A DNA stretch of 41,579 bases from a virus: IMG/VR virus record IMGVR_UViG_3300000236_000002, positions 1 to 41,579 of that record; one strand, 5' to 3'. Position numbers and translations under genes: made by a program. Shown here piece by piece: positions 2,485-24,743 of this stretch. How positions within the stretch are numbered: the stretch's first letter is position 1; each line of letters begins with the position of its first letter. Under the pieces are notes generated by a model that saw nothing but the letters and a program-made list of their open reading frames with translations, was not told the origin of the DNA and did not search any database.

Positions 2485-3837
2485 ATGAACTTCTTTTCTA
2501 ACATATTTTCTAAAAAAAGTAACTCAATTAGTCTTCAAAATAGATTAATGGAAAGTTTATTTCAGTACACAAACAAAGGTGCTGTTTATAACTATTCAGG
2601 TAATCTGAAAGACAACGTAAGGCATTACCAAGAAAACGATGCCTTATATAGTGTTATTAATTTGATTATTAGAAATATTCAATCCGTTGAATGGAAGCTT
2701 TACGAAATTAAAAACAAAAAAGCGTTCGATGGCTTTAAAGCTACTCAAAACCAACCAATAAGCATAAAATCAACGCTGTTTCACAAAAACGCTTTCAACG
2801 AAATTGAATCGCACCCAATCATTTCAAACTTTTTTGAAACACCAAACAAACGTCAAGGCTTCTCTGAATTTATAGAGGAATTTTTTGGCTTCAAATTACT
2901 TACAGGAAACGGCTACATAAACGGAATAAGGCAACCTTTTGGCGAAAAAAAAGACTTATTCCAAGAGTTCTTTGTAATGCCTTCGCATTTGGTTGAAATC
3001 ATAACAGGTGGTTGGCAAGACCCAGTAAAATCGTATCGCTTAGAGTTTCTTTGGAACGAAAAGTTTGAAATCCCTGCCGACGAAGTTTTACACTCTCGAA
3101 ACTGGAATCCAAATTATGTAGGTGGCGAATGGCTTTATGGTTTGTCGCCTGCTAAGTCGGTAAACAAACCGCTAAATGCCATTGACGAAGGCAATAATGC
3201 CAACGTCAAATCATTCCAAAACATGGGAGCGGTTGGTGTTTTAAGTACCGATAATTTTAAAACAGATGAGCTTTTTGGCGAAGCTCTTGTAAAAAAATAT
3301 TATGAAAAGTTTGGAGGTACTGACAATGCTGGGAAAGTAATGTTTTCGCCTATTCCATTAAAATACTTAGACATGGCAAAAAGCCCTGTGGACATGGATA
3401 TTTTGGCTTCAAACAAAGATGCTTTAAGAAGTGTGTGCAATGCTTGGGGTTTACAAAGCCAACTTTTAAATGACCCTGACAATAAGACTTATAACAATCA
3501 AAAAGACGCTAGAAAAGCATTATTCACAGATGTAGTAATGCCTTTACTCAATAATTTCAGCAAAGAATTAAATCGTTGGTTAATTAAAAACTACAACGAT
3601 AAAGGCAAAACAAAGCTTTACGCTGCACCAAACTGGCGTGAACACCCTGTTTTGCAAGATGAGTTTGAGAGTTTAACCACCTCTTTAAAAGATGCTTGGT
3701 GGCTTACTCCAAACGAAAAACGCATTATGCAAGGCTTAGGCGAGTTAGATTTACCGAATATGAATAATATTTTGATTCCTAACAACCTAGCTAAAATAGA
3801 AGAAATTAAAAATAATAATACATTCAATCATGCCTGA
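2485..3837 (+). CDS. Phage portal protein (HK97/SPP1-type superfamily)
   Basis: This 450-residue protein forms the dodecameric ring through which DNA enters the head. The order of features fits Phage_portal: an N-terminal NDALYSVINLIIRNIQSVEWKLYE-type segment (residues 52 onward), a wing region with P-S-H-L-V-E, a central ALRSVCNAWGLQSQLLNDP stem helix region near residue 315, and a C-terminal KDAWWLTPNEKR segment. It follows terminase and overlaps the protease gene by 8 bases. Its size is typical. The exact family within the portal clan is inferred. Confidence 0.9.
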   Translation: MNFFSNIFSKKSNSISLQNRLMESLFQYTNKGAVYNYSGNLKDNVRHYQENDALYSVINLIIRNIQSVEWKLYEIKNKKAFDGFKATQNQPISIKSTLFHKNAFNEIESHPIISNFFETPNKRQGFSEFIEEFFGFKLLTGNGYINGIRQPFGEKKDLFQEFFVMPSHLVEIITGGWQDPVKSYRLEFLWNEKFEIPADEVLHSRNWNPNYVGGEWLYGLSPAKSVNKPLNAIDEGNNANVKSFQNMGAVGVLSTDNFKTDELFGEALVKKYYEKFGGTDNAGKVMFSPIPLKYLDMAKSPVDMDILASNKDALRSVCNAWGLQSQLLNDPDNKTYNNQKDARKALFTDVVMPLLNNFSKELNRWLIKNYNDKGKTKLYAAPNWREHPVLQDEFESLTTSLKDAWWLTPNEKRIMQGLGELDLPNMNNILIPNNLAKIEEIKNNNTFNHA

Positions 3838-4555
3838 TATATACAAAGTTAAATCGCATTTTGAAATAAAAGACCTTGACGAAAAGCAAGGCATTGTTAC
3901 TGGATATGCTTCTATATTTAATAATATAGATAGCGATAACGAAATGATTGTGCCTGGTGCTTTTCTAAAAACCATTCAAGAGAGAGGTCCTGTAAGTGCA
4001 AAGCCTAGAATTAAACATCTTTGGCAGCATGACACTTGGCAGCCTATTGCACTACCAATAAGTTTAAGAGAAGATGCGAGAGGTCTTTATTTTGAGAGTA
4101 AATTTGGTTCTGACCAATTTAGCCGCGATAAATTTTTACAGCACGTTGATGGTATCATTACCGAGCTATCAATTGGTTACAATATTATAAAAGAAGAAAG
4201 AGCAAAACGAAGTAACACAGACGAAACTTGGTATTGTAAACTAACTGAATTGATGCTTTGGGAATATTCTTCTGTTACGTGGGGTTCAAACTCTTTGACT
4301 GAAATTATTTCGGCAAAAGGCATTACAATCGAATCGAAAATAGAAAAACTAAACAACCGCATGAATGCCCTTGCAAAAGGGCTGAAAAACGGTGCTTACA
4401 CAGATGAAATGTTATATTCATTTGAAATTGAAATCAAACAGATACAAGAAGCTTTTAACACAATGATTTTGAAGCCGGAAACAAAGCCCACTTCAATAGA
4501 GCCGGAAGTAAAAACCACTCAACTTGATTATGACTTCTTAATCTCAAATTTATAA
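3830..4555 (+). CDS. Prohead maturation protease (HK97 family, U35)
   Basis: This 241-residue serine protease cleaves scaffold or the capsid delta domain during head maturation. The family hallmarks are visible: GIVTGYASIFNNIDSDNEMI near residues 21-40, then VPGAF, the catalytic histidine in IKHLWQHD (H63 or H67) and the serine in TELSIGY (S114). The C-terminal 70 residues form a helical linker rich in Glu/Lys that could act as scaffold. It overlaps the portal gene by 8 bases and lies 17 bases before the capsid gene, the usual portal-protease-capsid order. Confidence 0.92.
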   Translation: MPDIYKVKSHFEIKDLDEKQGIVTGYASIFNNIDSDNEMIVPGAFLKTIQERGPVSAKPRIKHLWQHDTWQPIALPISLREDARGLYFESKFGSDQFSRDKFLQHVDGIITELSIGYNIIKEERAKRSNTDETWYCKLTELMLWEYSSVTWGSNSLTEIISAKGITIESKIEKLNNRMNALAKGLKNGAYTDEMLYSFEIEIKQIQEAFNTMILKPETKPTSIEPEVKTTQLDYDFLISNL

Positions 4556-4572: not shown

Positions 4573-5985
4573 ATGCAAACAAGTAGAATGATAATGTCAG
4601 CCCTGTTTTGGGCACTTATAGGTTCTCTTTTGGCTGGTGTCATTGGAGTTAATCCTATTATCGGAGCTATTGCGCTCCAAGTAATGAATCTTGTACCGAT
4701 GCCAGTTGGCGTATTAGGCGACAATGTACCAACAAACGGTACACAAACAAAAGAAGCCGAATTGCTTGAAAAGATAGGGCGAAAAACAAACGACTTAATT
4801 ACAGCCGCAACTAAAGGGTTTTTAACTCAAGAAATGTTTGATGCTAAAATTAAGGCGTTGCAAGAAGCTATGGATAAAATCAATCCCGAAGGCAAATTGC
4901 ACGATGTTAAAGAAGCACTTCAAAAACAGCTTGACGAAATTGGACTTGCCGTTGAAAAAATCAAAAATTCAACCCAAGCTCCAAAGAAAGTGAAAAGCCT
5001 TGAAAATTTCGTTAAAGATGCTTTTGCTTCTGAAAACTTCATAAAATACGTAAAAGGCGAAGTTGCTGCTTTTTCACAAAAAGCTGACATGACATTGACC
5101 GAAGTTTATGCTACTGGTACTTACATGCCTGAGCAAAGACCTGACGTATTGCCATTACCACGTAAACTACACGTTAGAGATGTTATTGCAAAAGGCACTT
5201 CCGATGAATCGTATATCAAATTTAATAAAGTTGTTTCGGTAAATGCTGCGGGTGCTGCCGTTGGATTAGATACTGCTTCGCCTCAATCTGATTTCAAACT
5301 TTCGCCTGCAACTGTTGATGCTAAAAGAATTGCAACTCATTTAGTAGTAGATAAAAATACACTAAGAGGAAACCAATCACGTGTACTTTCTATGATTAAA
5401 AATCTTATTCCAGAACAACTTCGTGATAAAGAAGATTACCAAATCATTAAAGGTACTGGTGTAGCTGAAAACGTATCAGGAGTAATGACTAACGCATCAG
5501 CATTTACTACTGTGGTGGCTTCGGGTCATGCAATGTACCACAAATTTGAAACTCCAAATAAAGCCGATGTTTTGAAAGTTGCAACAACTATTCTTCGCAA
5601 TGCCGGTATTTCTGCAACTGCAATCTTCTTAAATCCTTTCGAGGCTTTATTGATTGAAACAATGAAAGATACTACTAAAAACTATTTAAAAGACATCATT
5701 ATCAGAAGAAATGAGCAAGGTATTTTGATGGTTGGTGGTATTCCGGTTGTAGAACTTCCAGACATGGCAAGCGATGAGTTTTTGGTTGGCGACTTCCAAC
5801 GTTCGCTCGAATTAGCAGACTACGAAAGTTTGAATATGCGCATTTTTGACCAAAACGGCACTGATGCAATTCAAAATCAAGTAACCATTGCATTCGAGAT
5901 GCAAATTTTGTTACCAATTTATAGAGATATTGCCTTCTTAAAAGGTTTGTTCTCTACTGCTTTGACTGCAATTACTAAAGTATAA
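4573..5985 (+). CDS. Major capsid protein, HK97 fold, with hydrophobic N-terminus
   Basis: This 470-residue capsid subunit has three visible parts. Residues 7-52 are strongly hydrophobic and glycine-rich (ALFWALIGSLLAGVIGVNPI and on), with few charges. Residues 60-140 are an alpha-helical delta/scaffold-like segment. From about residue 155 a Phage_capsid HK97 core follows, with a P-loop/E-loop region and a C-terminal FDQNGTDAIQNQVTIAFEMQ stretch typical of the A-domain end. The protease encoded just upstream probably removes the N-terminal part, including the hydrophobic piece. The role of that piece is unknown; it may tether the prohead to the membrane. It starts at the first ATG after an A/T-rich leader. 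Confidence 0.9.
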   Translation: MQTSRMIMSALFWALIGSLLAGVIGVNPIIGAIALQVMNLVPMPVGVLGDNVPTNGTQTKEAELLEKIGRKTNDLITAATKGFLTQEMFDAKIKALQEAMDKINPEGKLHDVKEALQKQLDEIGLAVEKIKNSTQAPKKVKSLENFVKDAFASENFIKYVKGEVAAFSQKADMTLTEVYATGTYMPEQRPDVLPLPRKLHVRDVIAKGTSDESYIKFNKVVSVNAAGAAVGLDTASPQSDFKLSPATVDAKRIATHLVVDKNTLRGNQSRVLSMIKNLIPEQLRDKEDYQIIKGTGVAENVSGVMTNASAFTTVVASGHAMYHKFETPNKADVLKVATTILRNAGISATAIFLNPFEALLIETMKDTTKNYLKDIIIRRNEQGILMVGGIPVVELPDMASDEFLVGDFQRSLELADYESLNMRIFDQNGTDAIQNQVTIAFEMQILLPIYRDIAFLKGLFSTALTAITKV

Positions 5986-7646: not shown

Positions 7647-8087
7647 ATGATTGATTTAAAGAAATTTATATCAAAACTTAAAAATCTAAAAGCCTTTTCT
7701 CAGAAAGAGGCTTTTACGATTTTAAGTGAAGAATTGAAGCCAGTTATTGAAGATATGAATGCCGAACAGCTAAATAACGGAATGAGGGCAGATGGAAAAA
7801 TTTTACCCGATTATTCAGAAGCTTCTGTTCAAATTTATGGAAAACCAAACGGACCAATTAAGCTGTTAGATTCGGGCAAATTTCATTCAAGTATAACGGC
7901 AATCATTGAACCCAACGAAATTAAAATTACTTCAACGGATAGTAAATTCAGTGAACCACCAGCCAATTTAGAGTTTCATTATGGCTCTGAAATTTTGGGA
8001 CTAACTGAAAGGAACATTGAAGAATTAAGGGACGGCTATTTAATTCCACATTTAATTGAAAAAATAGAAAAATATTTTGAGAAATGA
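7647..8087 (+). CDS. Putative tail-completion / virion morphogenesis protein
   Basis: This 146-residue protein starts at the ATG at 7647, directly after the previous stop; an upstream in-frame extension exists but would overlap. The pattern MRADGKILPDYSEASVQIYG then GPIKLLDSGKFHSSI resembles phage virion-morphogenesis / minor tail proteins of the HK97 gp10 type, in which a conserved polar loop precedes an L-x-D-S-G-x-L/F segment. Such proteins close the tail end that joins the head. It overlaps the next gene by 4 bases (ATGA). Confidence 0.6.
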   Translation: MIDLKKFISKLKNLKAFSQKEAFTILSEELKPVIEDMNAEQLNNGMRADGKILPDYSEASVQIYGKPNGPIKLLDSGKFHSSITAIIEPNEIKITSTDSKFSEPPANLEFHYGSEILGLTERNIEELRDGYLIPHLIEKIEKYFEK

Positions 8088-8569
8088 AAAAACTAAAAAT
8101 TAATCCAGAGTTGGAAATAACGGTTTGCGAAGGAATAAGTGATATTTCATATTCCAGAGCAGTGAAATTCAAACAATACATTTCACAATTGATGTTTGAT
8201 ATAACGCTTCCTTTATTTCAGCAGGCTTTTGCTAATTACAAAAAAGCCGCAGACCGTGGGCAGCATTCAAACGGCTTACTTATTTGGCAAAACTTTGAAA
8301 GTGCAATTAAACTTAAAGAGCCAAACGTTGATGCGCTAGGCATTTGTTTTTCTTTGATAATTAAGGAAAATGAAAAAGATGTTTCAACCGATGACAATTA
8401 TCACAAAGATAGAATTGAACGACTATCAAAAGCAGGCTTGTCTTATGAAATGGTAGAGGAAGAAGTAGAGGCTTTTATGCAAGCCTTTCCAGCGATTTAC
8501 TCTTACTTCAGCGAGTGGAAAGGCAATCTAGCAAAAGAGATAGCATCAATAAAGAAATTATCAATTTAA
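8084..8569 (+). CDS. Putative tail assembly chaperone, G-type
   Basis: This 161-residue helical protein sits two frames before the tape measure, where lambda-like phages encode gpG and the frameshift product gpGT. It has no recognised domain, but the size, acidic-helical composition and position fit the chaperone that coats the tape measure during tail assembly. The following reading frame is in the -1 register, opens at 8449 and has no ATG in the overlap, which is the expected G/GT layout. The assignment is inferred from context. Confidence 0.6.
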   Translation: MKKLKINPELEITVCEGISDISYSRAVKFKQYISQLMFDITLPLFQQAFANYKKAADRGQHSNGLLIWQNFESAIKLKEPNVDALGICFSLIIKENEKDVSTDDNYHKDRIERLSKAGLSYEMVEEEVEAFMQAFPAIYSYFSEWKGNLAKEIASIKKLSI

Positions 8570-8895
8570 CAATCGCCCTTAACGAAGCTTTATTTTGTCA
8601 AGATGACAAGGAAATTTTAAAGTTAAGTGCCGAAATTGAAGTAAGAGAGTTCCAATTAAATGCCGATGAATTTCAGCCGTTTTGGAACGAAGAAAAAAAC
8701 AAATTTGATACGTACGCAAATTTTGTTCAAGACATGCAAAATGAATTTGAGCAAAATCTATTTGATATAAAGGAACTAACAGGCGAAGGCAATTACAAAG
8801 AAGTAGAACAATGGACTTGGCTCGAAGTTATTGACTACTCAAAACGCAAAGCCGCACAAATACAAAAGCGAAATGCCAAACGACATAAGGATTAA
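8515..8895 (+). CDS. Putative GT-type extension, probably made by -1 frameshifting
   Basis: This open frame runs from 8449 (after a stop at 8446-8448) to 8895, in the -1 register to the gene before it. It has no ATG in its first 80 codons; the given start at 8515 is a GTG with no leader. Translation is therefore probably by a -1 slip in the overlap. A-rich candidate sites are GCA AAA at 8531-8536 and A AAG AAA at 8551-8557; a slip at AAG 8552-8554 would give a product of about 270 residues. Its C-terminal half is acidic, helical and Gln/Trp-containing. It overlaps the tape-measure start by 23 bases. Direct GTG initiation remains possible. Confidence 0.5.
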   Translation: MERQSSKRDSINKEIINLTIALNEALFCQDDKEILKLSAEIEVREFQLNADEFQPFWNEEKNKFDTYANFVQDMQNEFEQNLFDIKELTGEGNYKEVEQWTWLEVIDYSKRKAAQIQKRNAKRHKD

Positions 8896-11800
8896 CATAT
8901 TAGGCGATGTAACGTTAGAAAAAAACGTTTTGCAAGCCGTTGAAATTCACGAAAACATTAAATCGACCTTTGAAGTTTGGAAACAAATGTCGAAAACGAA
9001 TCCTTTTGTCGATACCGAAAACACTAAAAACGCTTTAACCGAACAAACAAAACAATTAAAAGAAATTGAGCAGGCTATCAAAAAACAAATTATAGCTGAG
9101 CAAGCTCTCGAAAGAGTACAGAAAGAAGCCAACAAAGAGCTTTTAGAGAAAATAAAAATAGCCAAAGCAATTGAAAAAGCCCAAGAAGAAGCCAACAAAG
9201 CGCAAGACGATGCCAACAAATTGGCAAAAGAAAACGTGAGCGAGCTTCAAAAATTAGCCGCTGAAATAGAAGCGGTTAAGAAGGCAAATCAAGCTCTTAG
9301 TAAAGGAAATAAACAAACTTCGCAAGAGTTCATTGATAACAAAATGAAACTCAAAGAGCTAAATGAAGAATACCGAACTGCCGAAAAGTTAATTAATTTA
9401 AAAACTATAGCAGACAAAGAAGCCGAAGGTTCTAACCAAAAGTTAAAAGCTTCTGTTTCTCTATTAACTCACGAATACAATAAACTTTCCGATTCGGAAA
9501 GAGAAAACACCGAAAAAGGTAAGAAATTAACCCGCGAACTTGCCATGCAGGTTTATCAGTTAAAGAAAAACGAAGAAGCCGTTGGCGACCATAGGCGTTC
9601 GGTTGGCGACTATCAAAAAGCGTTAGGTAATGCTCAAACTCATTTGGCTTTTTTACTAAAAACCGAAAAAGATGTATCAAAAACAGTTGATAAAAACAGC
9701 GACGAATACAAACAACTTCGCCAAGAAATAAAACAAACCACCGACGAAGTACGCAAATACAATTCCGAAATAATTAAATCATCTGCCAAAGATGCAATTA
9801 GCTCAAAGGTAGGTTTTGACTTAGGCGGAATGGACGGAATTGCCGGAAAATTAGCTATTGGTGGGGCTGCCGTGGGGGCTGCCGTTGCGGCTGGTAAAGC
9901 CTTATACGATGCTTCGGTTGAAACAAACAAAATACAACAAAAGGTATTAAATCTTTTCGATTTACAAGGAGAAGCCCTAGATAATGTTACTGTTAAGGTT
10001 AAAACACTTTCAGAAGTATATGAAAAAGACTACGATGAAGTAATTAAAGCCGCCAATACAGTTTCTAAAGAATTTGGGATCTCGGCATCTGACGCTTTAA
10101 TCCATATTGAAGAAGGTTTTGCAAAAGGTTCTGATGCAAGCGGTGAGTTTTTGGATATGCTAAGAGAATATCCGGCACAATTTAAGGCTGCAGGGATTGA
10201 TGCGGATTTAATGTTTTCGATAATAAATAAATCCGCAACTGAAGGTATTTATTCCGATAAAGGGGCAGATGCTATCAAAGAAGGAATGTTAAGGCTTCGT
10301 GAAATGACTCCTGCCACCCAAGATGCATTGAAAGCAATAGGCTTTACGAGTGAAGAGGTACACGATGCTTTGAAAAATGGCACTTTAGCTACTTGGGACG
10401 GAATGAAAAAAGTGTCCTCAAAACTTTCAGAACTGAAAGAAAACAGCCCAAAAGTTGGGCAAGCTTTGGCAGATATATTCGGAGGTGCTGGTGAGGATGC
10501 TGGGTATGGTTTCATTACAATGCTCAAAGACGTAGATAAAAATCTTGATAATACAAAAGAAACTACAACAAAATTAACAAAATCCCAAATTGAATTAACA
10601 GAAGCATGGAATAGAGTAGTTATTAATGCGAGTTCTGATGGTGGTTATTTGAATACAGGATTAACAGCTATGCTAAGTATCGCATCTAAAACACTAGATG
10701 TTATATCTACAGGTAGTTTTATAGCTGCTGATCTTCTTGAAACTGCAAGAGAAGTAGAGGCAATAAACAAGCGAATTGCTAAGCAAAAAGGACAGGTTGA
10801 TAGAACTATAGAAGAAGAAAAGTCAAGCAAAGAAAATGCTTCTAATGTGAAAAATGAAGGTGGCGGTGGTTCTCAAGCAAATAAAGAAATAATAAAAGAA
10901 AATAAAGAAGTAACAGAATCAGAAAATAAAGAACAGGAAAAACGTCTTGCTAATCAAAAAGAGTTCTACAAAAAGCAACTTGACGCTGCAATTCTTTACG
11001 AAAGAATGCGCATTGAAAACATGGAAGAAGGTTTTGACAAAGAGAGAGATACTGAAAATTTAAGATACAAAGAAGCTTTAAGGTCTTACGATGAAAGATT
11101 TAAAGGCACTAAAGATTATTTCAAAATAGTAGAAGAAGAAACAGAAAAACACCTCAAAAATTTAGAAAATATTTATTCGGGTGTAAAATCGAATACCGGT
11201 TCTATGGGTATTGATACACCTACAAGTGCCTCTGAAGCTGCCGAAGTTGCAAAGAATATTAATTTAAAATTAAATGTACAAACTACAACTAATAGTCAAG
11301 AAGGTTTTGATTTGGCTGAATTATTAGGTGTAACCGACGACCAATTAAGCTTTGTAGAAGACCAACTCAGATACGCTTATAGTGCTGTTATGGACTTTAT
11401 GAGTAGCCTAGCCGATGCTCGAATAGCTGACTTAGAAGACCAGATTGCAATAACCGACGATAAAATAGAAAATACCGAGCGCGAGCTTGACAAAGAGCGC
11501 GAAGCTCGCGATAAGGGCTATGCCAACAACTTTGCACTACGTCAAAAAGAATTAGCCGACTTGCAAAAGCAAAAAGCTGAGGAAGAAAAAGAACTTGATA
11601 AAGCTCAAAAAGCAAAATCACGAATAGCCAAATTAGAAGCGATTGTTTCAGCCGCCGCCACTTCCTCAAATATAATTTTAACAGGCACCGAGCTTATGAA
11701 AGCTCATGCCGGAATACCATTTGTTGGCGTAGGTATAGCTGCCGGACTTATAGCTACTATGTTAGGCATGATTGCCAAACTTCGCGCATCGTCGCGCGGC

Positions 11801-12220: not shown

Positions 12221-13869
12221 TAGAATTCTTCATTACATACAACGCCGCAACGCGACAGGTATATCCTTTGTTTTCAGACCTTGCTATTGAATATAGCACC
12301 GCAAAAAGCTATTTGCTTTCAGAAAAGCAACTAGCCAATACCCTTACGTTTACCAACGAAGTAGGCGACTACGATTATTTGATGAATATTATAAAAACAA
12401 ATCAAGTTACAATTTTCATCAAAAAAGACAATGTCGAAGTATTTCGCAGCACATTTTCAATTCTTAGTTGTAACGTAAATGAGGTAGCACAAACCATCGA
12501 AGCTAAAATTGATGTAATAGGGTCTGTACCTAGCTTTGAAAAATCGAGTATTATTCAATACAATATACTCAAAACTACACCAAAGCACGTCATGAAAATT
12601 AAGGAAAAAACAGAAATGTTTTTTGAACTTGCCTTGTTTAATCTAGGCATAGAACCAGACGTTGCTGAAGAATTGGAAATTGTAATTACTTACGATATAG
12701 CACCCGGTACGCAAGTTTGGATACTTGCCGTTGAACTTTCGGCAGTCAATATTGGTGCTTATTGGCAATGGTCTAATCATTTCGATTGCTACTATAGGTC
12801 GTGGACTAATAACAATGAAAGACTTGCAAATTATATAGTAAAATATAGTACTCAAATAGTCGATGGCGACCATGTTTTGATTGGTAACATGAGCGGTTTT
12901 TATTTCTATTACCAACTTAGTGAACTTGTTTTAGAAGAAACCGAAACACTTTTCGACAATCAAATCATGCTCAAAGATGTTTTGCAGTTTTTATTCAATA
13001 AATTCAGCGCATTACCTTTGGTTTCAAGCCTATTTTTCAACCACAATAACGAAAACGGAGTAGCAATAGGCAATTATATAGACCAAACCACCGATTTAAG
13101 TAAGCTTTCTATTAGTCAAATTACTGATATAAAACGGTATTATGCCTATTCAAATGCTTTTATTATGAACATTTCGCTCAAAGAACTGTTAGACGATTTG
13201 AATGGTATGTTTGGAGAGTTGAAAGTGTTTATCGACAAAAATAATGTACTACGAATAGAGCATATAGCCTATTTCAGTACCCAAAGTATAGATTTAACCA
13301 ATATTGAATTTCTGAACGAATTCAAAAATTGGAATGTCGATAATAACACGAAACAATTTAGAGAAAATTACACATTTGTAGCCTACCAACGCCAAGAAAA
13401 CAAGGCTATAGTAGAAAATACCAGTTATTTTAATTTAACCGAAATAAAAGAATTTTCAACTAAATTTCTAGTGTCAGATATTCCCGGTGTTATATCGGAA
13501 ACAGATATATTTTCAGATGATTTGATTACTATAGGCTTACTAAATGCCAATAATGAGTTAATAAAAAGCGGTGGAACATTCAATTCGTATTTAGATTTTC
13601 CTAATCTAATTACTAAATATCACAAATACAACCGAATTACACCAATTTTCAAGGTAAACGGTGTAAATGTAACCAGTTCAACGCTCAAAAAGATAAAAAA
13701 ACAAGAACAAATAGAAGTTCCATTTTCTTTACTGAATGTAAGCTTGTTGGACTTCAACCCTTCCTATTACCGTTTCAAAACGCAATTAGGCGATAACGGA
13801 GAGGTTGAAACCGCTACATACAATTTAATTTCAGATACTTTAACATTAAAATTAAAATACGAATTATGA
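12217..13869 (+). CDS. Putative distal tail / tail-hub protein
   Basis: This 550-residue protein immediately follows the tape measure (4-base ATGA overlap), the position of distal-tail and hub proteins. The N-terminal 130 residues are beta-rich (NQVTIFIKKDNVEVFRSTFS then AQTIEAKIDVIGSVPSFE), as in Dit/hub adaptor domains; the middle is aromatic and Asn-rich. A central helix ELLDDLNGMFGELKVFIDKN and IEHIAYFSTQ could belong to a gp27-like fold. No enzyme motif was seen. The role is inferred from order and composition. Confidence 0.6.
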   Translation: MIEFFITYNAATRQVYPLFSDLAIEYSTAKSYLLSEKQLANTLTFTNEVGDYDYLMNIIKTNQVTIFIKKDNVEVFRSTFSILSCNVNEVAQTIEAKIDVIGSVPSFEKSSIIQYNILKTTPKHVMKIKEKTEMFFELALFNLGIEPDVAEELEIVITYDIAPGTQVWILAVELSAVNIGAYWQWSNHFDCYYRSWTNNNERLANYIVKYSTQIVDGDHVLIGNMSGFYFYYQLSELVLEETETLFDNQIMLKDVLQFLFNKFSALPLVSSLFFNHNNENGVAIGNYIDQTTDLSKLSISQITDIKRYYAYSNAFIMNISLKELLDDLNGMFGELKVFIDKNNVLRIEHIAYFSTQSIDLTNIEFLNEFKNWNVDNNTKQFRENYTFVAYQRQENKAIVENTSYFNLTEIKEFSTKFLVSDIPGVISETDIFSDDLITIGLLNANNELIKSGGTFNSYLDFPNLITKYHKYNRITPIFKVNGVNVTSSTLKKIKKQEQIEVPFSLLNVSLLDFNPSYYRFKTQLGDNGEVETATYNLISDTLTLKLKYEL

Positions 13870-15878
13870 TAAGAAACACAATAACCCACATAATCATACC
13901 ATTTTACGATTCTATTACTAAGCAAAATTATAGAAAAGTAAAAAGCCAAACCTTGCCTTTTCCTATTTTTTGCAAAAGTCCGGTTTTTCAAATAGCACTC
14001 GATTTAAACGAAGCGGTTAGTACTATACAATTTGTTAATCTAGCAAGTTTAAAAACAATAAATATCAATCCTGATTTATTTATAGATAGATATTTGACTG
14101 CAGAAAATGTTATCCTTATTAGTAAGGAGAACATTAATTTAAACCTGAATGCTGCTGGTTTTTACTATGTAATTATAAACGACCGAGGTACGAACTATTA
14201 TTCAGAAGTTTTTGAGATAGTAAACGATACTGCTGGACTATTCAAAATTACATTTTCAGATAGTTCCGACATCGAAAATAGGCTTTATCAAACTTACTTT
14301 AAAGAAACAGTAAGCTTTAGAGGGAATATAAAAAATACAAAACCATTTTTTGAATCGAAAAGTGTTAAAAGGTCCGGCGAAGAGTATTTCACAGAGCGCG
14401 TGTATTATGACCAATTTGAAATGAAATTCAATTCATACCTTAACACCGCGCTTGCTATTCAACGAATTAATTTATTTGACAATATAGAAATTACAACGCC
14501 GCGCGGAGAAGTTTTCACGCTCAAGAAGTGTACGCCTACTATTTCGGAACTGAACGAAACAGGTATTTTTAACATTACTATTCTATTCAAAACGAATAGA
14601 ATATTCAAAAACACGCTACAAACAAATTTAAACGCATCGCTTTACATAAAAGGCTTAAGTGCCGATGCCGTAAGTTCAAACTACATTTATACCGATACTA
14701 GCGGTTATAAATACACAATGTTTTACCGAACTGTAGTTAATCCTGTTACGAATAACATAATTCGAGTATTCAAACTTTCGTATTCACATACCGAATTATT
14801 GCAATTTTTCTACATCGAAATTTCACGCGACAGAGGTGTAACTTACAAAAGCATCGATGGAACAGCACCTTACAATAAGGTACAAGTTGGGCAGTGGATT
14901 AACAACCCAACACCAGTTTATACTAAAACTGGACGATTGATTGTGTTTTTTCAGTGGGCACCGACCTCAAGCGCAACACGCGAAAAAGCCTGCTGGATTT
15001 ATTCCGACGACGATGGAACTACATGGTCGGCAGTACAATATTACACCGACCCGCCAGTAGCTAACAAGTTGTACAATAGCTATTTTTATAGTAACTATTT
15101 CTTTTATGCAAACAACGGAGATATTCTAGTTCCTTACAATTTGCGTGTGGTTACGTTTGGTAGAAATAACTGTAGATTAGCACGTTCTACCGATAACGGA
15201 GCTACATTTACCGATACTGGTATTGTGTTTTTCGCAAACCCAACAGGCACAATCATGGAGCCGGGCGAGTTTGAGGTTGTTCAAGATGGTTCTCATGTGT
15301 TTATGATTGCACGTGCCGGGCAAGGTAACAACCCGGGCGGACATAGTGTACCAATTATGTTCTATTCGAGCGATTATGGTTCTACGTGGAGTAGTACCGG
15401 AAACCCACACACCGTTGAAAGTCTTTGGGCAAAAGATAACAAGTGCGGTTTTCTATATTTAGAAGGTGCGAATGTAAGTTTAGGCATTATTGGTGCTACT
15501 TACAATGAATGTTTGCCTTCGATAAACATTGTAACAATCGACAATGTAAAATGGCTTGTTATTTTCTATTGGTTAAGGCTAACACCAGCGGGTCAGCAAA
15601 CCGTTCAGAAATGGACTGTAGTTAAAGCAAGCGACTATGTAGCGAATGGTGTAAATGCTATAAAAAACATTTCGCAAACGCTTTTTGATGGTTACAACCA
15701 CACAGGAAGCAATAAAAACGGTGGAAATGGTTGTGCTGATAATTTTGGCAGCGACTTAGTTTTTTCGAGTTATGCTCAAGAAAGTACAACCAGCGCAGGC
15801 GGTACAACCCGATTGTATAATATTGTTATACGCAAAGCGCAAATTCAACAATTAATTGACGCTTACAACGCAGCTTAA
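13866..15878 (+). CDS. Tail protein with C-terminal sialidase-type (Asp-box) beta-propeller
   Basis: This 670-residue protein appears to have two parts. Residues 1-250 are beta-rich and look like a baseplate or adaptor domain. Residues 255-660 carry four Asp boxes (S-x-D-x-G-x-T-W/F): SRDRGVTY at 320, SDDDGTTW at 380, STDNGATF at 441 and SSDYGSTW at 501, spaced almost exactly 60 residues apart. That periodicity is the blade repeat of the sialidase/BNR six-bladed propeller, so the tail tip may bind or cleave a host surface glycan. A clear arginine triad and Tyr/Glu pair could not be assigned by eye, so a non-catalytic glycan-binding role is possible. It overlaps the hub gene by 4 bases. Confidence 0.75.
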   Translation: MIRNTITHIIIPFYDSITKQNYRKVKSQTLPFPIFCKSPVFQIALDLNEAVSTIQFVNLASLKTININPDLFIDRYLTAENVILISKENINLNLNAAGFYYVIINDRGTNYYSEVFEIVNDTAGLFKITFSDSSDIENRLYQTYFKETVSFRGNIKNTKPFFESKSVKRSGEEYFTERVYYDQFEMKFNSYLNTALAIQRINLFDNIEITTPRGEVFTLKKCTPTISELNETGIFNITILFKTNRIFKNTLQTNLNASLYIKGLSADAVSSNYIYTDTSGYKYTMFYRTVVNPVTNNIIRVFKLSYSHTELLQFFYIEISRDRGVTYKSIDGTAPYNKVQVGQWINNPTPVYTKTGRLIVFFQWAPTSSATREKACWIYSDDDGTTWSAVQYYTDPPVANKLYNSYFYSNYFFYANNGDILVPYNLRVVTFGRNNCRLARSTDNGATFTDTGIVFFANPTGTIMEPGEFEVVQDGSHVFMIARAGQGNNPGGHSVPIMFYSSDYGSTWSSTGNPHTVESLWAKDNKCGFLYLEGANVSLGIIGATYNECLPSINIVTIDNVKWLVIFYWLRLTPAGQQTVQKWTVVKASDYVANGVNAIKNISQTLFDGYNHTGSNKNGGNGCADNFGSDLVFSSYAQESTTSAGGTTRLYNIVIRKAQIQQLIDAYNAA

Positions 15879-15879
15879 T

Positions 15880-16623
15880 ATGAAAACAGTAGCAACGCAA
15901 CACAATAAAGTTTTTGCAGATGCAATTATCGAACAGTTGAGATTTATGCTTATGCTAAATCTCGACTGGTTAGAATTTGCATTTCCGGCTGCAAAAAAAG
16001 CAAAAAGCGAAAAAAAAACACTTCCGGCAGTATATAATCAAGATGGTACGTTGCAATTTATAACACCAACTTCGATTGTAAAATCATTGTGTTTTTTCGA
16101 GAAAAAGAATTATTCAATTTCGCACACCGATGACAATAATCAGTATGATTTAAGTGCTACATTTTGGGTGCAACTCGACAAATTAAGAGAAGCCGATGTA
16201 ACCGATTTTTCCGACGAATTGATTTATCAAGTCAGCGAAGTATTAATAAATAATCGGGCATCAAATATTACTGTTCAAGCGGATAGTGCTGTTTTGAATG
16301 AATTTGATTTTGAGGATTCACTTTTGATGTATCCTTACGCAGCATTTAAGGTTAATTTCCGAATGTTTGGCTTTAAAAACAAAACCAATTCAACGGTTAA
16401 TACTTTAGTAAGTAATAATTTAGCAAAAGCCTACTTGCAAAAAGCAAGTTTTGAAGCCGAAGAAAACCAATCGGAATTTGTTTGCACCTTTTTACTTACT
16501 AATAATTGTGTCGTGTTCGTTGATGGCACTCAATTAGAAAGCTTTTTTTATACAATCAATAAAAATGTTTTAACTCTTACAAATCCTTTATTTCAATATC
16601 AAAAATTAACAATAATCAATTAA
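15880..16623 (+). CDS. Hypothetical tail protein
   Basis: This 247-residue protein starts at the ATG at 15880, directly after the sialidase-like gene (TAATATG). A Lys/Glu-rich loop near residues 43-55 is followed by mixed beta sequence (YDLSATFWVQLDKLREADV) and a Phe/Asn-rich C-terminus (NNCVVFVDGTQLESFFYTIN). No family was recognised. Its place between tip and fibre genes suggests a baseplate or fibre-anchor part. Confidence 0.6.
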   Translation: MKTVATQHNKVFADAIIEQLRFMLMLNLDWLEFAFPAAKKAKSEKKTLPAVYNQDGTLQFITPTSIVKSLCFFEKKNYSISHTDDNNQYDLSATFWVQLDKLREADVTDFSDELIYQVSEVLINNRASNITVQADSAVLNEFDFEDSLLMYPYAAFKVNFRMFGFKNKTNSTVNTLVSNNLAKAYLQKASFEAEENQSEFVCTFLLTNNCVVFVDGTQLESFFYTINKNVLTLTNPLFQYQKLTIIN

Positions 16624-16628
16624 AAAAT

Positions 16629-17915
16629 ATGAAAAAAACTATTATTTTTTTAGCTTTTATGCTGTTTTCAGTACTCATATTTGCCCAAAATGTGCGGCTA
16701 ATAGGCATGAATAATGAAAATGCAGTGTTCGGTACAACGTATGCGATTAATACGCTTGTTTTGGACTATGCTACCAACCGTTTATTCAAATTAACGGCTA
16801 GTGCAACGGCTACTCAAACGCTTGCGAATGCTAGCAAAACGCTTGTTATAGCCAACGTCGAAAATTTAGACCTAACGCAAATCAAAACGCTGATTGCTGA
16901 TACTGCTACATCGGTACGAAATTGGGTTTTATCTAAAAATTACTTAACTTCTTTTACCGAAACAGACCCAATTTTCAACGCGCAAAAGTCGAATTATGCG
17001 CTGCAAAGTTGGGTTACAAGCCAGAATTATATAAGCAATGAATTTGACCCGTTTTTTGCAGCTTCGGCAGCTTATTCTATTTCAACTACCGACAAAGCAA
17101 ACTGGAACACCGCTTACCGTTGGGGCAACCATGGTTCTGCCGGATATTTAACAAATTTTACCGAAACAGACCCTTTTTGGAGTACTGACAAACCGAATTA
17201 TGCGCTACAAAGTTGGGTAACTTCGCAAAACTATTTAACTTCTTTTAGTGAAACAGACCCGATTTGGTTGTCTGAAAAATCGAATTACATTACTTTCGAT
17301 GATATTGGTGCAATAAGTCTAACAGAAACCGACCCTGTTTGGAATAGCCAAAAAGCTTCTTATGCTACTCAAACATGGACTAATTCGCAAGGCTTTTTGA
17401 AAACAGAAACCGACCCTGTTTGGAATAGCCAAAAAGCGAGCTATGCAACTATTCAAGCCTTGCATGATACAGCAAGTATTTTACGAGATGACTTTAATAA
17501 ATTCGTTATTGTAGATAATTCAGGGTTGTGGGTTTCTACTGGTAATGAGGTTATTTTGAGTACTACAAATAATATTGTAACAGTTAAAAACAACAAAACC
17601 TACAATTTTGTAAAGACTTCAAACAGCGTTAATTATACGTATATAGATAGCATTGAAATAACAAACCTTACCGATGTCGAAATAGCAGCAACCGCAAAAG
17701 GCACAAACACAATAGGCACGTTCAAACATACTGTAGCTTATAATAACGTTGCCGGAACGCTTAATAGAGTTGGTATAAATAGCAGCGAAATAAAATGCGA
17801 TACTTACCCTACTACGCATTTTGCCTACGATGTGCGTGCCAACTGGTTGCGTTTTAAAGTGAAAAGTAACGAATTAGTTACGTGGAAATTTAAGGTAGAA
17901 ATAAATTATAACTAA
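16629..17915 (+). CDS. Repeat-built tail fibre-like protein with signal peptide
   Basis: This 428-residue protein begins with a clear Sec signal peptide: KK, hydrophobic core IIFLAFMLFSVLI, and cleavage after FA in FAQNV. Residues 100-290 consist of repeated modules: (F/L)TETDPxFNxQKSNYALQSWV, AYRWGNHGSAGYL and TETDPVWNSQKASYAT, with five copies of ETDP. These modules are common in trimeric fibre stalks of Bacteroidota prophages. The C-terminus is a beta-rich head. A signal peptide on a tail fibre is odd, since virions assemble in the cytoplasm; the protein might instead be an exported adhesin or surface-displayed fibre. It is followed with a 1-base overlap by another signal-peptide gene. Confidence 0.75.
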   Translation: MKKTIIFLAFMLFSVLIFAQNVRLIGMNNENAVFGTTYAINTLVLDYATNRLFKLTASATATQTLANASKTLVIANVENLDLTQIKTLIADTATSVRNWVLSKNYLTSFTETDPIFNAQKSNYALQSWVTSQNYISNEFDPFFAASAAYSISTTDKANWNTAYRWGNHGSAGYLTNFTETDPFWSTDKPNYALQSWVTSQNYLTSFSETDPIWLSEKSNYITFDDIGAISLTETDPVWNSQKASYATQTWTNSQGFLKTETDPVWNSQKASYATIQALHDTASILRDDFNKFVIVDNSGLWVSTGNEVILSTTNNIVTVKNNKTYNFVKTSNSVNYTYIDSIEITNLTDVEIAATAKGTNTIGTFKHTVAYNNVAGTLNRVGINSSEIKCDTYPTTHFAYDVRANWLRFKVKSNELVTWKFKVEINYN

Positions 17916-18436
17916 TGAAATATATAATTGTTTTTTTATTGTTATCAGATATAACGTTTGCGCAAAATAAATACGCTCTTATTTTGTGCGATAAAAGCGA
18001 TGCCGATTTCAAGCAAGAAACCGCATTTATTAAAGCGATTTTCAGAAACAACGATTATAAAATATTAAAAACAAATGATTTAAGTAAATTAGTAAAGCAA
18101 ACAACTAAAATTAATGATACCGATTCGGTTGTTTTTATCTATACCGGGCACGGCAAGGAAAATATTATATCAAAATTGCCTGACCTTTACGTTTTCGGGA
18201 AAGAATTAAACAGTTTATTTTTTATTGAATTGCTTTGTATGCAAACAAATAACGTTAAATTTTTCGTTCATGCGTGCAACAAGGCAAAAGAGAAAAATAA
18301 ACGTAAATACGCAGGCATTGCAGCCAAAAAAGGTTTTGAGGTAGAAAAAGAAAATAAAGACCTATTTTATTTTATTTTCAATTTGAATACAAAACCAACT
18401 ATGCAAAGAGATTTTTTTGAATATTACAATAATTAA
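17915..18436 (+). CDS. Secreted caspase-fold (clan CD) cysteine protease-like protein
   Basis: This 173-residue protein has a signal peptide (core IIVFLLLSDIT, predicted cut after FA in FAQNK) and a mature domain laid out like clan CD peptidases. A first strand YALILCDKS (20-28) is followed by a helix with FIKAIF and a second strand near YKIL. SVVFIYTGHGKEN holds the candidate catalytic histidine (H79), and VKFFVHACNKAKE the candidate cysteine (C121). The GHG and (H/D)-A-C motifs at the ends of successive strands are the caspase/metacaspase/gingipain signature. It lies in the late operon right after the fibre, before two membrane proteins, so timing suggests lysis or particle-associated function. 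No other phage role is known to me; an inactive caspase-like fold is possible. Confidence 0.6.
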   Translation: MKYIIVFLLLSDITFAQNKYALILCDKSDADFKQETAFIKAIFRNNDYKILKTNDLSKLVKQTTKINDTDSVVFIYTGHGKENIISKLPDLYVFGKELNSLFFIELLCMQTNNVKFFVHACNKAKEKNKRKYAGIAAKKGFEVEKENKDLFYFIFNLNTKPTMQRDFFEYYNN

Positions 18437-18447
18437 ATTTTTGAACC

Positions 18448-18723
18448 ATGATTTTTTTTAATTTTTTAGCAGGTTTTCTGCAAGAACATGACGGCAAAAG
18501 CAGCCAAAAAAGAGTAATTATATTTATAGCCATGCTACTAATAGCATTTATAACGTATGCAAATGTAATGCTCAATAAACAAGTAGATTATATGTTATTA
18601 GCTAGTCTAATGACTATTGTGCTTTTCGGAATAGGTGTAATAACCCGAATTTCGGAAAAAACACTAAACAATATACTCGAAAAAGGCAAAGAAAAATCTA
18701 CGCCCAAAGAAGAAGTAGTGTAA
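18448..18723 (+). CDS. Small two-helix membrane protein, holin candidate
   Basis: This 91-residue protein has two predicted transmembrane helices, about residues 23-42 (RVIIFIAMLLIAFITYANV) and 49-67 (MLLASLMTIVLFGIGVI), and a charged Lys/Glu C-terminal tail. Size, charge and place at the end of the late operon fit a class II-type holin, but no holin family motif is clear. A terminator hairpin follows at 18730. The absence of a recognisable endolysin nearby weakens the lysis call. Confidence 0.55.
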   Translation: MIFFNFLAGFLQEHDGKSSQKRVIIFIAMLLIAFITYANVMLNKQVDYMLLASLMTIVLFGIGVITRISEKTLNNILEKGKEKSTPKEEVV

Positions 18724-18729
18724 CACAAA

Positions 18730-18757
18730 AATAAAGCGGTAAAAAAGCCGCTTTATT
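18730..18757 (+). terminator. Terminator hairpin after the holin-like gene
   Basis: AATAAAGCGG at 18730-18739 pairs perfectly with CCGCTTTATT at 18748-18757 (10 base pairs, 8-base loop). It lies 7 bases past the stop codon and before the next gene. It has a weak T-tract, so it may act as an attenuator with some readthrough. Confidence 0.6.
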
Positions 18758-18773
18758 CTTAAGTTATTTAAAA

Positions 18774-19709
18774 ATGAAAGATTTCTTCAATAAACATAGA
18801 ACAGGTATTATTCATTTTGTAGGCTTTATAATAATAGCATTAAGCCTATTATTTATTGGTTGGAGTGTAACAAAATTAGACCTATTCGATTTTTTCAATG
18901 TTATCTCCAAAGTGGTTAATTTGTCGATTGTGTTTGCTATTGTAGTTATTACTTCTACATTGATAATTATGTTTGCAGAGCAAAAGAAAATTAGAAAATC
19001 ACAAAAAAAACTAAGCGTAGATATTGATTCGATAAAAAAAACGGACCAACAGCATTTTGAAATTGCCGAGCAAAATAGGAAGTTACTTATTGAAGAAATA
19101 AATAATTTAACCAGCAAAATACACCACTTAACCGTAACTGTTAAGGCTATTGACTATAATATAACTGTTAAGGTATTCAATCATTTAGATCTTGAAAAAA
19201 AGTTATTCGTTGGCTTGCGTACTATCAATTATGAGCGCATCGAAATATTAGATGCTATGTTCACTACCTTCTTTGAGAAGATAATCAAAAAAATAACCGC
19301 ACACGTTAGAAGTCTGAAAGAAAACAATAAGCCGTTTACGTATAAAGCGCAAAAAGCAATAGTCGATGAAATAGAACAAATATTGCTGACAGATAACATT
19401 AAAATAAGTCAGAAAAATTTTATTGAATTATTCACTACTCTAATGAAAGATGTGATAGAAGAAAAAAGAGTAGATAAGAAAAAAGAAATTGCAGATATTA
19501 TTTCCGACAATTTCAAAGTTTTTATTGAGGCTATTTATTTTGAATATATTTATCCTTACAAGAAAGGTATGCTGCCTATTCCCAAAAAAGGAGCTACCAA
19601 AAATACCAACGAAACAAATAATACCAATAATTCAAACATAAACGGCAACGATAATTTTGCGTTACAACAAATAAAAGCTGAAAATATAACAATAAACATA
19701 GACAAATAA
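18774..19709 (+). CDS. Membrane-anchored coiled-coil protein of unknown function
   Basis: This 311-residue protein has two N-terminal transmembrane helices (about 13-31 and 45-66) with a short loop, then a Lys/Glu/Gln coiled-coil rod (70-130), a helical middle (FVGLRTINYERIEILDAMF) and an Asn/Thr-rich linker (NTNETNNTNNSNINGNDNF). Its end, QQIKAENITINI, resembles short beta-helix capping segments also seen in two lysogeny proteins of this window. It closes the late operon before a strong terminator. It could be a lysis regulator, a spanin-like protein or an exclusion factor; none is proven. Confidence 0.6.
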   Translation: MKDFFNKHRTGIIHFVGFIIIALSLLFIGWSVTKLDLFDFFNVISKVVNLSIVFAIVVITSTLIIMFAEQKKIRKSQKKLSVDIDSIKKTDQQHFEIAEQNRKLLIEEINNLTSKIHHLTVTVKAIDYNITVKVFNHLDLEKKLFVGLRTINYERIEILDAMFTTFFEKIIKKITAHVRSLKENNKPFTYKAQKAIVDEIEQILLTDNIKISQKNFIELFTTLMKDVIEEKRVDKKKEIADIISDNFKVFIEAIYFEYIYPYKKGMLPIPKKGATKNTNETNNTNNSNINGNDNFALQQIKAENITINIDK

Positions 19710-19842: not shown

Positions 19843-19853
19843 GATTTTAAGAG

Positions 19854-19896
19854 TGGAGCTTACCGGAATCGAACCGGTGACCTTTTGACTGCCAGA
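19854..19896 (-). other. attP core: 3' half of a tRNA gene (anticodon arm to acceptor)
   Basis: Read on the minus strand, this carries an anticodon loop CTGGCAG, the stem side TCAAA, variable loop AGGTC, a perfect T arm (ACCGG, loop TTCGATT, CCGGT) and an acceptor 3' strand AAGCTCC plus discriminator A. The opposite anticodon strand is imperfect and no D arm or 5' acceptor follows, so this is not a complete tRNA. Loop positions put GGC at the anticodon, which would be tRNA-Ala, but the host gene should decide. Integrases of this family commonly recombine at such tRNA 3' halves so that the host gene is restored. Arm-type repeats flank it and the integrase starts 150 bases away. Confidence 0.75.
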
Positions 19897-20007
19897 CAAT
19901 AGTGTATTATTTTTGTTGGCTTATTTGTTGGTGTGTAAATCAGTATTTTACATCGAATATTTGCTTTTTAGTAAAAAAATATTTTCGTAAATATACATTG
20001 TTTTGCG

Positions 20008-20015
20008 TACATTTG
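20008..20015 (+). promoter_or_regulatory. Integrase promoter -7 box
   Basis: TACATTTG fits TAnnTTTG. The transcript would begin near 20021, just before the right-hand arm sites, and lead to the ATG at 20048. The -33 position carries TTCG, a partial match. Confidence 0.5.
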
Positions 20016-20024
20016 TGCGCAAAA

Positions 20025-20043
20025 TGTTTACTAAATGTTTACT
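20025..20043 (+). promoter_or_regulatory. Candidate integrase arm-type sites, right pair
   Basis: TGTTTACT at 20025-20032 and 20036-20043 repeats the left pair, with the following sequence TAAAAAT also shared. The pair lies in the integrase leader between its promoter and start codon, so integrase binding there could also repress its own gene. Confidence 0.6.
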
Positions 20044-20047
20044 AAAA

Positions 20048-21214
20048 ATGAGTACGACAATAAAATCAGTCATTAAAAGTAAGGACACCAATAAAGAAGG
20101 TAAGGTTAATGTTAAAATACGAATTACCCACAAACGAAAGATTAAATACCTTCCGACTATCTTCTACGTGTTTCCAAACGAATTTGACAATGAAAAAGGG
20201 TTGCTTCGTAAAAAAAGTCCCAACGCTGCATTCATTAATTTAGAACTTCAGAAAAAAGTGTTTGAATTTCAGAAAAAAGTAATTGAATTTCCAGCTAACA
20301 TTACACCTGAAGCCTTATTTACACATCTCGCGTATTCAAACGAAAATAAGGAAGATATTGATTTTTTCATTTTACTAAAAAACAAAATCAATCATCTGAA
20401 AGAAATAGGCAAACTCGGTTCTTCTCGAATTAACGAATCGACTAGCAAAATTCTATCTTTGTTTGTAAAAAAGCCTATACTTGATTTTAAAGCTATTGAT
20501 TTCAATTTTCTTAAATCTTTTGAGAATTTTATGCAGCTCGAAGGTTTGAAAACAAATTCGATTGGTGTACACATGCGAAATGTTAGAGCTATATACAATC
20601 AAGCCATTGACGAACAGATTATCAGTTTGGAATATTATCCTTTCAGACGTTTTAAGATTAAAAAGGAGCGAACTATCAAACGAAGCCTTGCCATCGACCA
20701 GTTAAAAAAAATTAAAAATACCGTTTTCAAAGATGCTAATTTAGAGTTTGCCAAAGATTATTTTTTCTTATCATTCTATTTGATAGGTATTAACGTAATC
20801 GACATGTACAATTTAATTAAAATAAAAAATGGTAGAATTATTTATCGACGGTCCAAAACTGGTCGTATTTACGATGTGAAAGTACAACCAGAAGCGTTGG
20901 CTTTAATCGAAAAGTACAAAGGTATCGAGCGACTTTTGAATTTTTACGAGAAGTACAACGACCACCGAAATTTAGATAAATCGGTAAATAAGAAATTGAA
21001 ACGCATCGCTACTTTATGCGAAATTGACGACCCTATTTCAACCTACTATGCTCGCCATTCGTGGGCTACAGTCGCATCTAAAATAGGTATTTCAAAAGAT
21101 ATTATTTCGCACGCTTTAGGACATGGTAACGACACAGTAACAGATGTATATATTGACTTTGATTTGAGCAAAGTTGATGCTGCAAATAAGGCTGTTATAG
21201 AGGCGTTGAAATAA
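20048..21214 (+). CDS. int: Tyrosine recombinase (phage integrase)
   Basis: This 388-residue integrase joins attP to the host tRNA site. It has an N-terminal arm-binding domain (about 1-95), a SAM-like core-binding domain (100-200, ending SIGVHMRNVRAIYNQAID) and a catalytic domain. The catalytic region shows RRSKTGR (strand lysine), ARHSWAT (Arg II with His), ALGHGND (His III) and the nucleophile Y368 in TDVYID. At the usual Arg I position the sequence is YLIGINVIDMYNL with no arginine, as in some Bacteroidota recombinases. I chose the ATG at 20048 because the longer frame starts upstream of, or at, the predicted transcript start and the arm sites. A strong terminator follows. Confidence 0.9.
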   Translation: MSTTIKSVIKSKDTNKEGKVNVKIRITHKRKIKYLPTIFYVFPNEFDNEKGLLRKKSPNAAFINLELQKKVFEFQKKVIEFPANITPEALFTHLAYSNENKEDIDFFILLKNKINHLKEIGKLGSSRINESTSKILSLFVKKPILDFKAIDFNFLKSFENFMQLEGLKTNSIGVHMRNVRAIYNQAIDEQIISLEYYPFRRFKIKKERTIKRSLAIDQLKKIKNTVFKDANLEFAKDYFFLSFYLIGINVIDMYNLIKIKNGRIIYRRSKTGRIYDVKVQPEALALIEKYKGIERLLNFYEKYNDHRNLDKSVNKKLKRIATLCEIDDPISTYYARHSWATVASKIGISKDIISHALGHGNDTVTDVYIDFDLSKVDAANKAVIEALK

Positions 21215-21282: not shown

Positions 21283-21535
21283 CATCAAAATCAAATAGGG
21301 AATTGAAATAATTAAATTTACTGAATTTAAAAATTTCGCTCGCTTTTTGTGATTATTAAATCGAAATTTTCACTCATTTGGGGAGTTTTTAATCGAACCC
21401 GCAGGGAATTGAAATAATTACATTTGTTAAATATTTCTCATTCTCCCCAAATTTTAATCGAACCCGCAGGGAATTGAAAAAATTGAATTAGATAAATCAC
21501 AACAAAGCATAATCGAACCCGCAGGGAATTGAAAT
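21283..21535 (+). CRISPR. CRISPR-like mini-array of type I-B/III-style repeats, degenerate
   Basis: Three near-identical 30-base units lie at 21386-21415, 21451-21480 and 21506-21535, sharing AATCGAACCCGCAGGG followed by AATTGAAA. A fourth, partly deleted unit ends at 21309. Intervals between units are 76, 35 and 25 bases. The unit begins TTTTAAT in two copies and ends ATTGAAA(T/A), the 3' tag typical of type I-B and type III repeats, and can fold as TCGA..CCC-GCA-GGG..TTGA. It has its own promoter box and terminator. No cas1, cas2 or effector operon is nearby. Against a normal array: the intervals are AT-rich, unequal and weakly alike just after each repeat, and few in number. An RNA anti-CRISPR or a structured phage RNA would look the same. 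Confidence 0.6.
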
Positions 21536-21588
21536 AATTAGATTGAATAAATCTTAATTGAAATTCTTGATTTTGCTAAATTTTTACA

Positions 21589-24326: not shown

Positions 24327-24743
24327 TTATTTTTTTTTCATTAATTCTATCATGTCTTTGAGCAATTTGTTTTGCTCTTTCAAATAGTCAATTTCTTGTT
24401 TTAACATTTTTACGTTTTCTCTGCCGTAATCAACCCCACGTTCCTGTAAATTCATTTCATTGCCCTCGCCCACTACCGTATTGCCTACCCACGAATTTTT
24501 TATTTTGCTCTCTATTTTGGGCTTCTCACTTTTTAGCATTTCGCCCTTTCCGGTTAAAAGCCATTCTATATTTATATTGAAATTTGATATAATTTTTAGT
24601 ATAATTTCAAGCGATATTTTCTTTCCATTGTTTTCAATGTGTGATAAATTCGCTTGTTTAACATCAATAATATTACAAAAGTCGGTTTGTGTTAAATTAT
24701 TTCTATTCCTTATTTCTTTGATTCTCAAACCAATATCAATCAT
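24327..24743 (-). CDS. CI-type repressor (XRE helix-turn-helix with coiled coil)
   Basis: This 138-residue protein has an HTH_3/XRE domain at residues 6-65: LRIKEIRNRNNLTQTDFC, VKQANLSHIENN and ISLEIILKIISNFNINIEWL, ending in the common WLLTGKGEM motif. Instead of a LexA-like peptidase it has GNTVVGEGNEMN and a leucine-zipper coil (VKMLKQEIDYLKEQNKLLKD), so it likely oligomerises through the coil and is not induced by RecA self-cleavage. It diverges from the early operon across a switch with three AATAAGATA sites. It heads the leftward lysogeny operon. Confidence 0.85.
   Translation of the reverse strand: MIDIGLRIKEIRNRNNLTQTDFCNIIDVKQANLSHIENNGKKISLEIILKIISNFNINIEWLLTGKGEMLKSEKPKIESKIKNSWVGNTVVGEGNEMNLQERGVDYGRENVKMLKQEIDYLKEQNKLLKDMIELMKKK

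Follow-up and report, generated by a model that had tools for sequence, protein, structure and literature searches.

The gene at positions 17915–18436 (+ strand) of the window, which is the entire 41,579-base IMG/VR virus record, encodes a 173-residue protein with a signal peptide and the paired His and Cys motifs of clan CD cysteine peptidases, and we propose, at not quite even odds, that it is an exported p20-like protease of this clan that works in the cell envelope during infection or lysogeny. The open reading frame begins with ATG and carries the candidate catalytic His79 in FIYTGHGK (YTGHG codons, Y76–G80, 18140–18154, +) and the candidate nucleophile Cys121 in FFVHACNK (VHAC codons, V118–C121, 18266–18277, +), and the residues on which an earlier note had based a clan CD dyad layout are thus present as it described them. 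This is a real gene: codon usage in its frame gives z = 6.3 against shuffles, and it is the sole frame to score positive. Its G+C content is 27.8% versus 34.3% for the whole record, a low value common to all three genes of 17915–19709, and the mature protein contains three cysteines, at 25, 108 and 121, and carries a net charge of +7.

The same note had placed a signal peptide ahead of the dyad domain, and hydropathy and inspection bear this out. Residues 1–16 (MKYIIVFLLLSDITFA, 17915–17962, +) show the n-, h- and c-regions of a Sec signal, with a Lys in the n-region, a hydrophobic core of Kyte-Doolittle mean 2.8 and a TFA/QN end, the FAQ ending being usual in Bacteroidota; the predicted cut falls before QNKY.

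Judged by its gene families, the record is that of a temperate tailed phage of Bacteroidota. Family matches identify a small terminase (196), large terminase (677), portal (2485), S78 prohead protease (3830–4555), HK97-type capsid (4573–5985), tape measure (8831), BNR-repeat protein (13866) and CI-like repressor (24330–24743), together with a tyrosine integrase (20003–21214, +; Pfam and PHROGs). The protease gene follows a phrog_8145 protein (15880–16623, +; PHROGs) and an ETDP-repeat tail-fibre-like protein (16629–17915, +; tail-fibre phrog_9729, 2e-17), its start codon overlapping the stop of the latter (TAATG). Downstream are a holin-like ORF of 91 aa with two hydrophobic segments and no family match (18448–18723, +) and a membrane protein with a coiled coil and an Asn-rich tail ending NINGNDNFALQQIKAENITINI (18774–19709, +), a C-terminus that we take to be reminiscent of bacterial amyloid-signalling or RHIM-like motifs. 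The late-operon position between fibre-like and two-TM ORFs was therefore correctly described, as was the phage origin of the gene. The 3′ half of a tRNA gene, read by eye at about 19850–19899 (− strand) beside the integrase, looks like attP and is presumed to be its core (ARAGORN found no complete tRNA). The record thus seems to represent the phage form, with the protease gene within it, and an origin of the gene in flanking host DNA was rejected because both the tRNA half and the integrase are located deeper in the record.

What defines clan CD is structure together with a Gly-flanked His/Cys dyad, not sequence (PMC12445089). In the protein studied here His79 lies beside Gly after a hydrophobic strand (VVFIYTGHG; strand 71–77 in both structural models), and Cys121, in the Ala-Cys pair often found at the clan CD nucleophile, follows the next core strand (NNVKFFVHAC; strand about 113–121). 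The dyad spacing of 42 residues is within the 37–63 measured in Bacteroidota C14 proteins. Two single-sequence AlphaFold2 runs both gave β1-α1-β2-α2-β3-(H79)-α3-β-β4-(C121)-α4-β5-β6-α5, which is the caspase p20 order; H79 follows strand 3 and C121 strand 4, the arrangement seen in clan CD, and both models are of low confidence (pLDDT 50–57; pTM 0.48 for the model of pLDDT 57). The caspase fold put forward in the earlier note is consequently upheld in part: motif pair, spacing and the order of secondary structure in the low-confidence models agree with it, while Foldseek found no caspase with either model, and nothing with that of pLDDT 57. We regard a caspase-like fold as probable.

The motif pair itself is rare. 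When 2,574 ORFs of at least 100 aa from fetched phage and prophage loci were scanned for a hydrophobic strand plus GHG followed, at caspase spacing, by a hydrophobic strand plus [DEHNSQ][ASGT]C, just one other ORF carried it, and that ORF encodes a true C14 caspase. Scored with a Bacteroidota C14 profile, the protein came second of 2,575 ORFs, behind this same caspase, and its 12 bits exceeded all 3,715 scored shuffles. Shuffles that kept its two motif blocks, however, scored no lower in 1,588 of 4,000 cases, so the profile similarity is confined to the YTGHG strand and carries no information beyond that of the motif, and we dismissed the score as proof of homology. Alignment to C14 with hhalign covered residues 30–82 (P 4e-4), Pfam gave no match to PF00656 (C14) at E ≤ 1, and these comparisons do not establish membership of the C14 family. 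A doubtful but still appreciable alternative is that the protein has no caspase fold at all and is an orphan exported α/β protein in which GHG and HAC occur by chance, its function lying elsewhere. The lack of homologues, the confinement of C14 similarity to the motif, the low-confidence model and the altered Cys context would all fit such a protein; the rarity of the motif pair in other ORFs, and the placement of both motifs exactly at strand ends in blind models, speak against it.

Comparison with prokaryotic C14 proteins (orthocaspases and metacaspase-like proteins with p20 only) shows both likenesses and differences. The GHG and AC motifs, their spacing and the p20 strand-helix order of the low-confidence models are alike, and many C14 members have signal peptides. 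Beyond the YTGHG strand, however, the protein has no significant similarity to them, and it consists of one small domain (about 157 residues) encoded in the late region of a phage. The D-x-C-[HR] nucleophile context of C14 is also absent: the protein reads H119-A120-C121-N122, with HAC for D[AS]C, a His two before the Cys where Asp, Glu or Gln is usual, no Gly after the Cys and no HSG following it. In the low-confidence model the C-terminal part is short, with a β5-β6 hairpin where β5-helix-β6 is expected. This odd nucleophile context and reduced C-terminal part could indicate a caspase-like fold that has lost peptidase activity and serves as a binding or inhibitory pseudo-protease, like pseudo-orthocaspases, and a share of prokaryotic metacaspase-like sequences does lack the dyad (PMC5756287); as both dyad residues are kept here and glycines flank the His, we consider this scarcely probable.

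The best Pfam match of the protein is to the Raptor N-terminal CASPase-like domain (PF14538), over the His/Cys region (residues 53–124), although at 14.2 bits it falls below the cut-off of 27 (E 0.04). That domain is known from a eukaryotic signalling protein. Clostripain (C11) and gingipain (C25, from Bacteroidota) share the His-Gly...Ala-Cys layout and are exported proteases. They are large multidomain enzymes, however, and in Pfam the protein matched neither the C11 nor the C25 profile.

We found no homologue of the protein in IMG/VR, GTDB contigs, phages, plasmids, the PDB or about 1,500 Bacteroidota genomes. Both the whole protein and its core were used against IMG/VR, GTDB contigs, phages and plasmids; the pattern-based scans detect close relatives only. 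PADLOC, NCBIfam and PDB sequence searches gave no match. Repeated weak matches in Bacteroidota genomes resembled a HemB-type enzyme and an RsgA-type GTPase whose P-loop lined up with YTGHGK, and were taken as chance, as were single weak matches elsewhere. A P-loop reading of TGHGK was itself ruled out, since there is no Gly at position 75 and no Ser or Thr after the Lys. Searches with neighbouring genes (12217, 15880, 16629 and 18448) recovered no record of close relatives spanning the same place, the closest terminase relatives in IMG/VR (89%) being fragments that end before it. We also set aside MT835687, a faecal ‘phage’ record with a caspase, as it is marked unverified, no phage gene was recognised by eye in the stretch read and its other genes look bacterial.

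The claim that a phage can carry a secreted caspase gains independent support from a provirus of Hymenobacter rigui. Its locus L041, reached through terminase relatives, encodes a 482-aa protein (13720–15168) with a signal peptide and a C14 domain (Pfam 1.5e-15), which the NCBIfam EACC1-associated caspase model also matches (2.6e-20, below the model's cut-off), and directly after it a signal-peptide metalloprotease (15179–15682). The pair sits between the terminase (terL) and portal, with terminases and a spike-like protein upstream and the portal (5e-132), scaffold-like and capsid-like genes downstream; in IMG/VR the region forms a 62-kb record, and the caspase lies 19 kb from one end of it. 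Like the protein studied here, the H. rigui caspase combines a signal peptide with a GHG/AC dyad among the structural genes of a Bacteroidota provirus, but it differs in its size, extra N-terminal domain, canonical DACHSG and adjoining secreted metalloprotease. The two proteins have no BLAST similarity, which makes the H. rigui caspase an independent case and not a homologue, and a provirus with a bona fide signal-peptide C14 caspase shows that secreted caspases ride in Bacteroidota phages. A match of 213 residues (E 6.5e-4) links the unannotated phrog_18397 to the H. rigui caspase domain, and on such similarity caspase-like phage proteins may already be present, unnamed, within PHROGs. Locus L041 also contains a Tad3 anti-Thoeris gene (20435–21064).

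Caspase homologues of prokaryotes, some of which have signal peptides, have been described in detail (PMC3501461, PMC5756287), and caspase-like domains occur in polymorphic toxins as releasing peptidases or toxins (PMC3482391). Our search of the full-text open-access literature, with subscription papers mostly outside its scope, found no paper on a phage-encoded caspase. Most of what is known of bacterial caspase-like proteases concerns systems of defence and cell death and domains that process toxins; an exported one borne by a phage would be the same chemistry in viral hands, outside the cytoplasm.

In the mechanism we favour, the gene product would be a caspase-like (clan CD) cysteine peptidase in minimal form, exported by Sec. 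Following removal of the 16 N-terminal residues, the p20-like domain would work in the periplasm or on the cell surface of an infected or lysogenic Bacteroidota host, His79 acting as general base and Cys121 as nucleophile, and would cut one or a few exported proteins. The peptidase would be made together with the upstream fibre-like protein, the two sharing an accessory slot flanked by the tail genes and attP. That fibre-like protein (16629) has a signal peptide of its own (MKKTIIFLAFMLFSVLIFA/QN), and it or a host envelope or receptor protein would be the likeliest substrate; the outcome would be a modified cell surface or superinfection exclusion, not a role in the virion. The N-terminus of the fibre-like protein (MKKTIIFLAFMLFSVLIFAQN) is very similar to the signal peptide of the protease, which is odd for a tail fibre. 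Phage-encoded DGR target proteins were reported to be without signal peptides in a survey (PMC6199706).

The overlap between the protease start and the fibre-like stop would also suit a virion-associated maturation protease that clips the fibre in assembly or aids penetration. We think this very unlikely, because the signal peptide would remove the product from the cytoplasm, the site of virion assembly, the fibre-like ORF bears a signal peptide too, and the S78 prohead protease already serves head maturation. The main functional rival to an envelope protease of the surface-modifying kind is lysis, in which a Sec-exported protease would degrade envelope proteins and so aid lysis in a phage with no recognisable endolysin. 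The gene adjoins the two-TM ORF and precedes attP, as in the usual order of fibre, lysis genes and attP, and neither Pfam nor PHROGs recognised an endolysin among the scanned ORFs of the 41,579-base record. Peptidoglycan is no caspase substrate, however; Bacteroidota phages can have endolysins that the libraries miss through divergence, and the scan took in only part of the small ORFs; the two-TM ORF has no holin match; and the H. rigui caspase, lying between terminase and portal, is outside any lysis cassette. A lysis role is accordingly an unlikely one in our estimate.

A second locus of the H. rigui provirus, L158, extends the envelope reading. There a phrog_8145 gene (7827–8393) is followed by a spike-like β-helix protein (8788–11148) with a signal peptide and a type IX secretion system (T9SS) type A sorting domain (TIGR04183, 6e-8), a spike that, from these sequence features, is apparently exported to the cell surface via the host's type IX system. 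The window has the phrog_8145 protein first, then the signal-peptide fibre and then the protease, and the signal-peptide fibre here and the T9SS-tailed spike there, both after phrog_8145, point to a slot for exported cargo and not for virion parts. The slot rests on two cases, which are few but agree. It may be, although we would sooner expect otherwise, that such a slot recurs in temperate Bacteroidota phages, both behind the phrog_8145 tail gene and at other late-region positions, its signal-peptide spikes or fibres and secreted peptidases of the caspase kind remodelling the surface of the lysogen, and that the protein studied here is a new minimal clan CD family for that purpose. Taken together, the H. 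rigui provirus and the signal-peptide fibres suggest that phages of Bacteroidota use the export machinery of the host for proteins of their own.

Two further features of the record were observed. Direct repeats of TAATCGAACCCGCAGGGAATTGAAA, three full and one partial with a spacing of 55–106 nt, lie 3′ of the integrase (21297–21557); they partly resemble a tRNA T-arm, could be integrase arm sites or CRISPR-like, and were found in none of 109 Bacteroidota genomes. The capsid ORF opens with a strongly hydrophobic segment (MIMSALFWALIGSLLAGVIGVNPIIGAIAL), perhaps reflecting a wrong start or a fused membrane segment.
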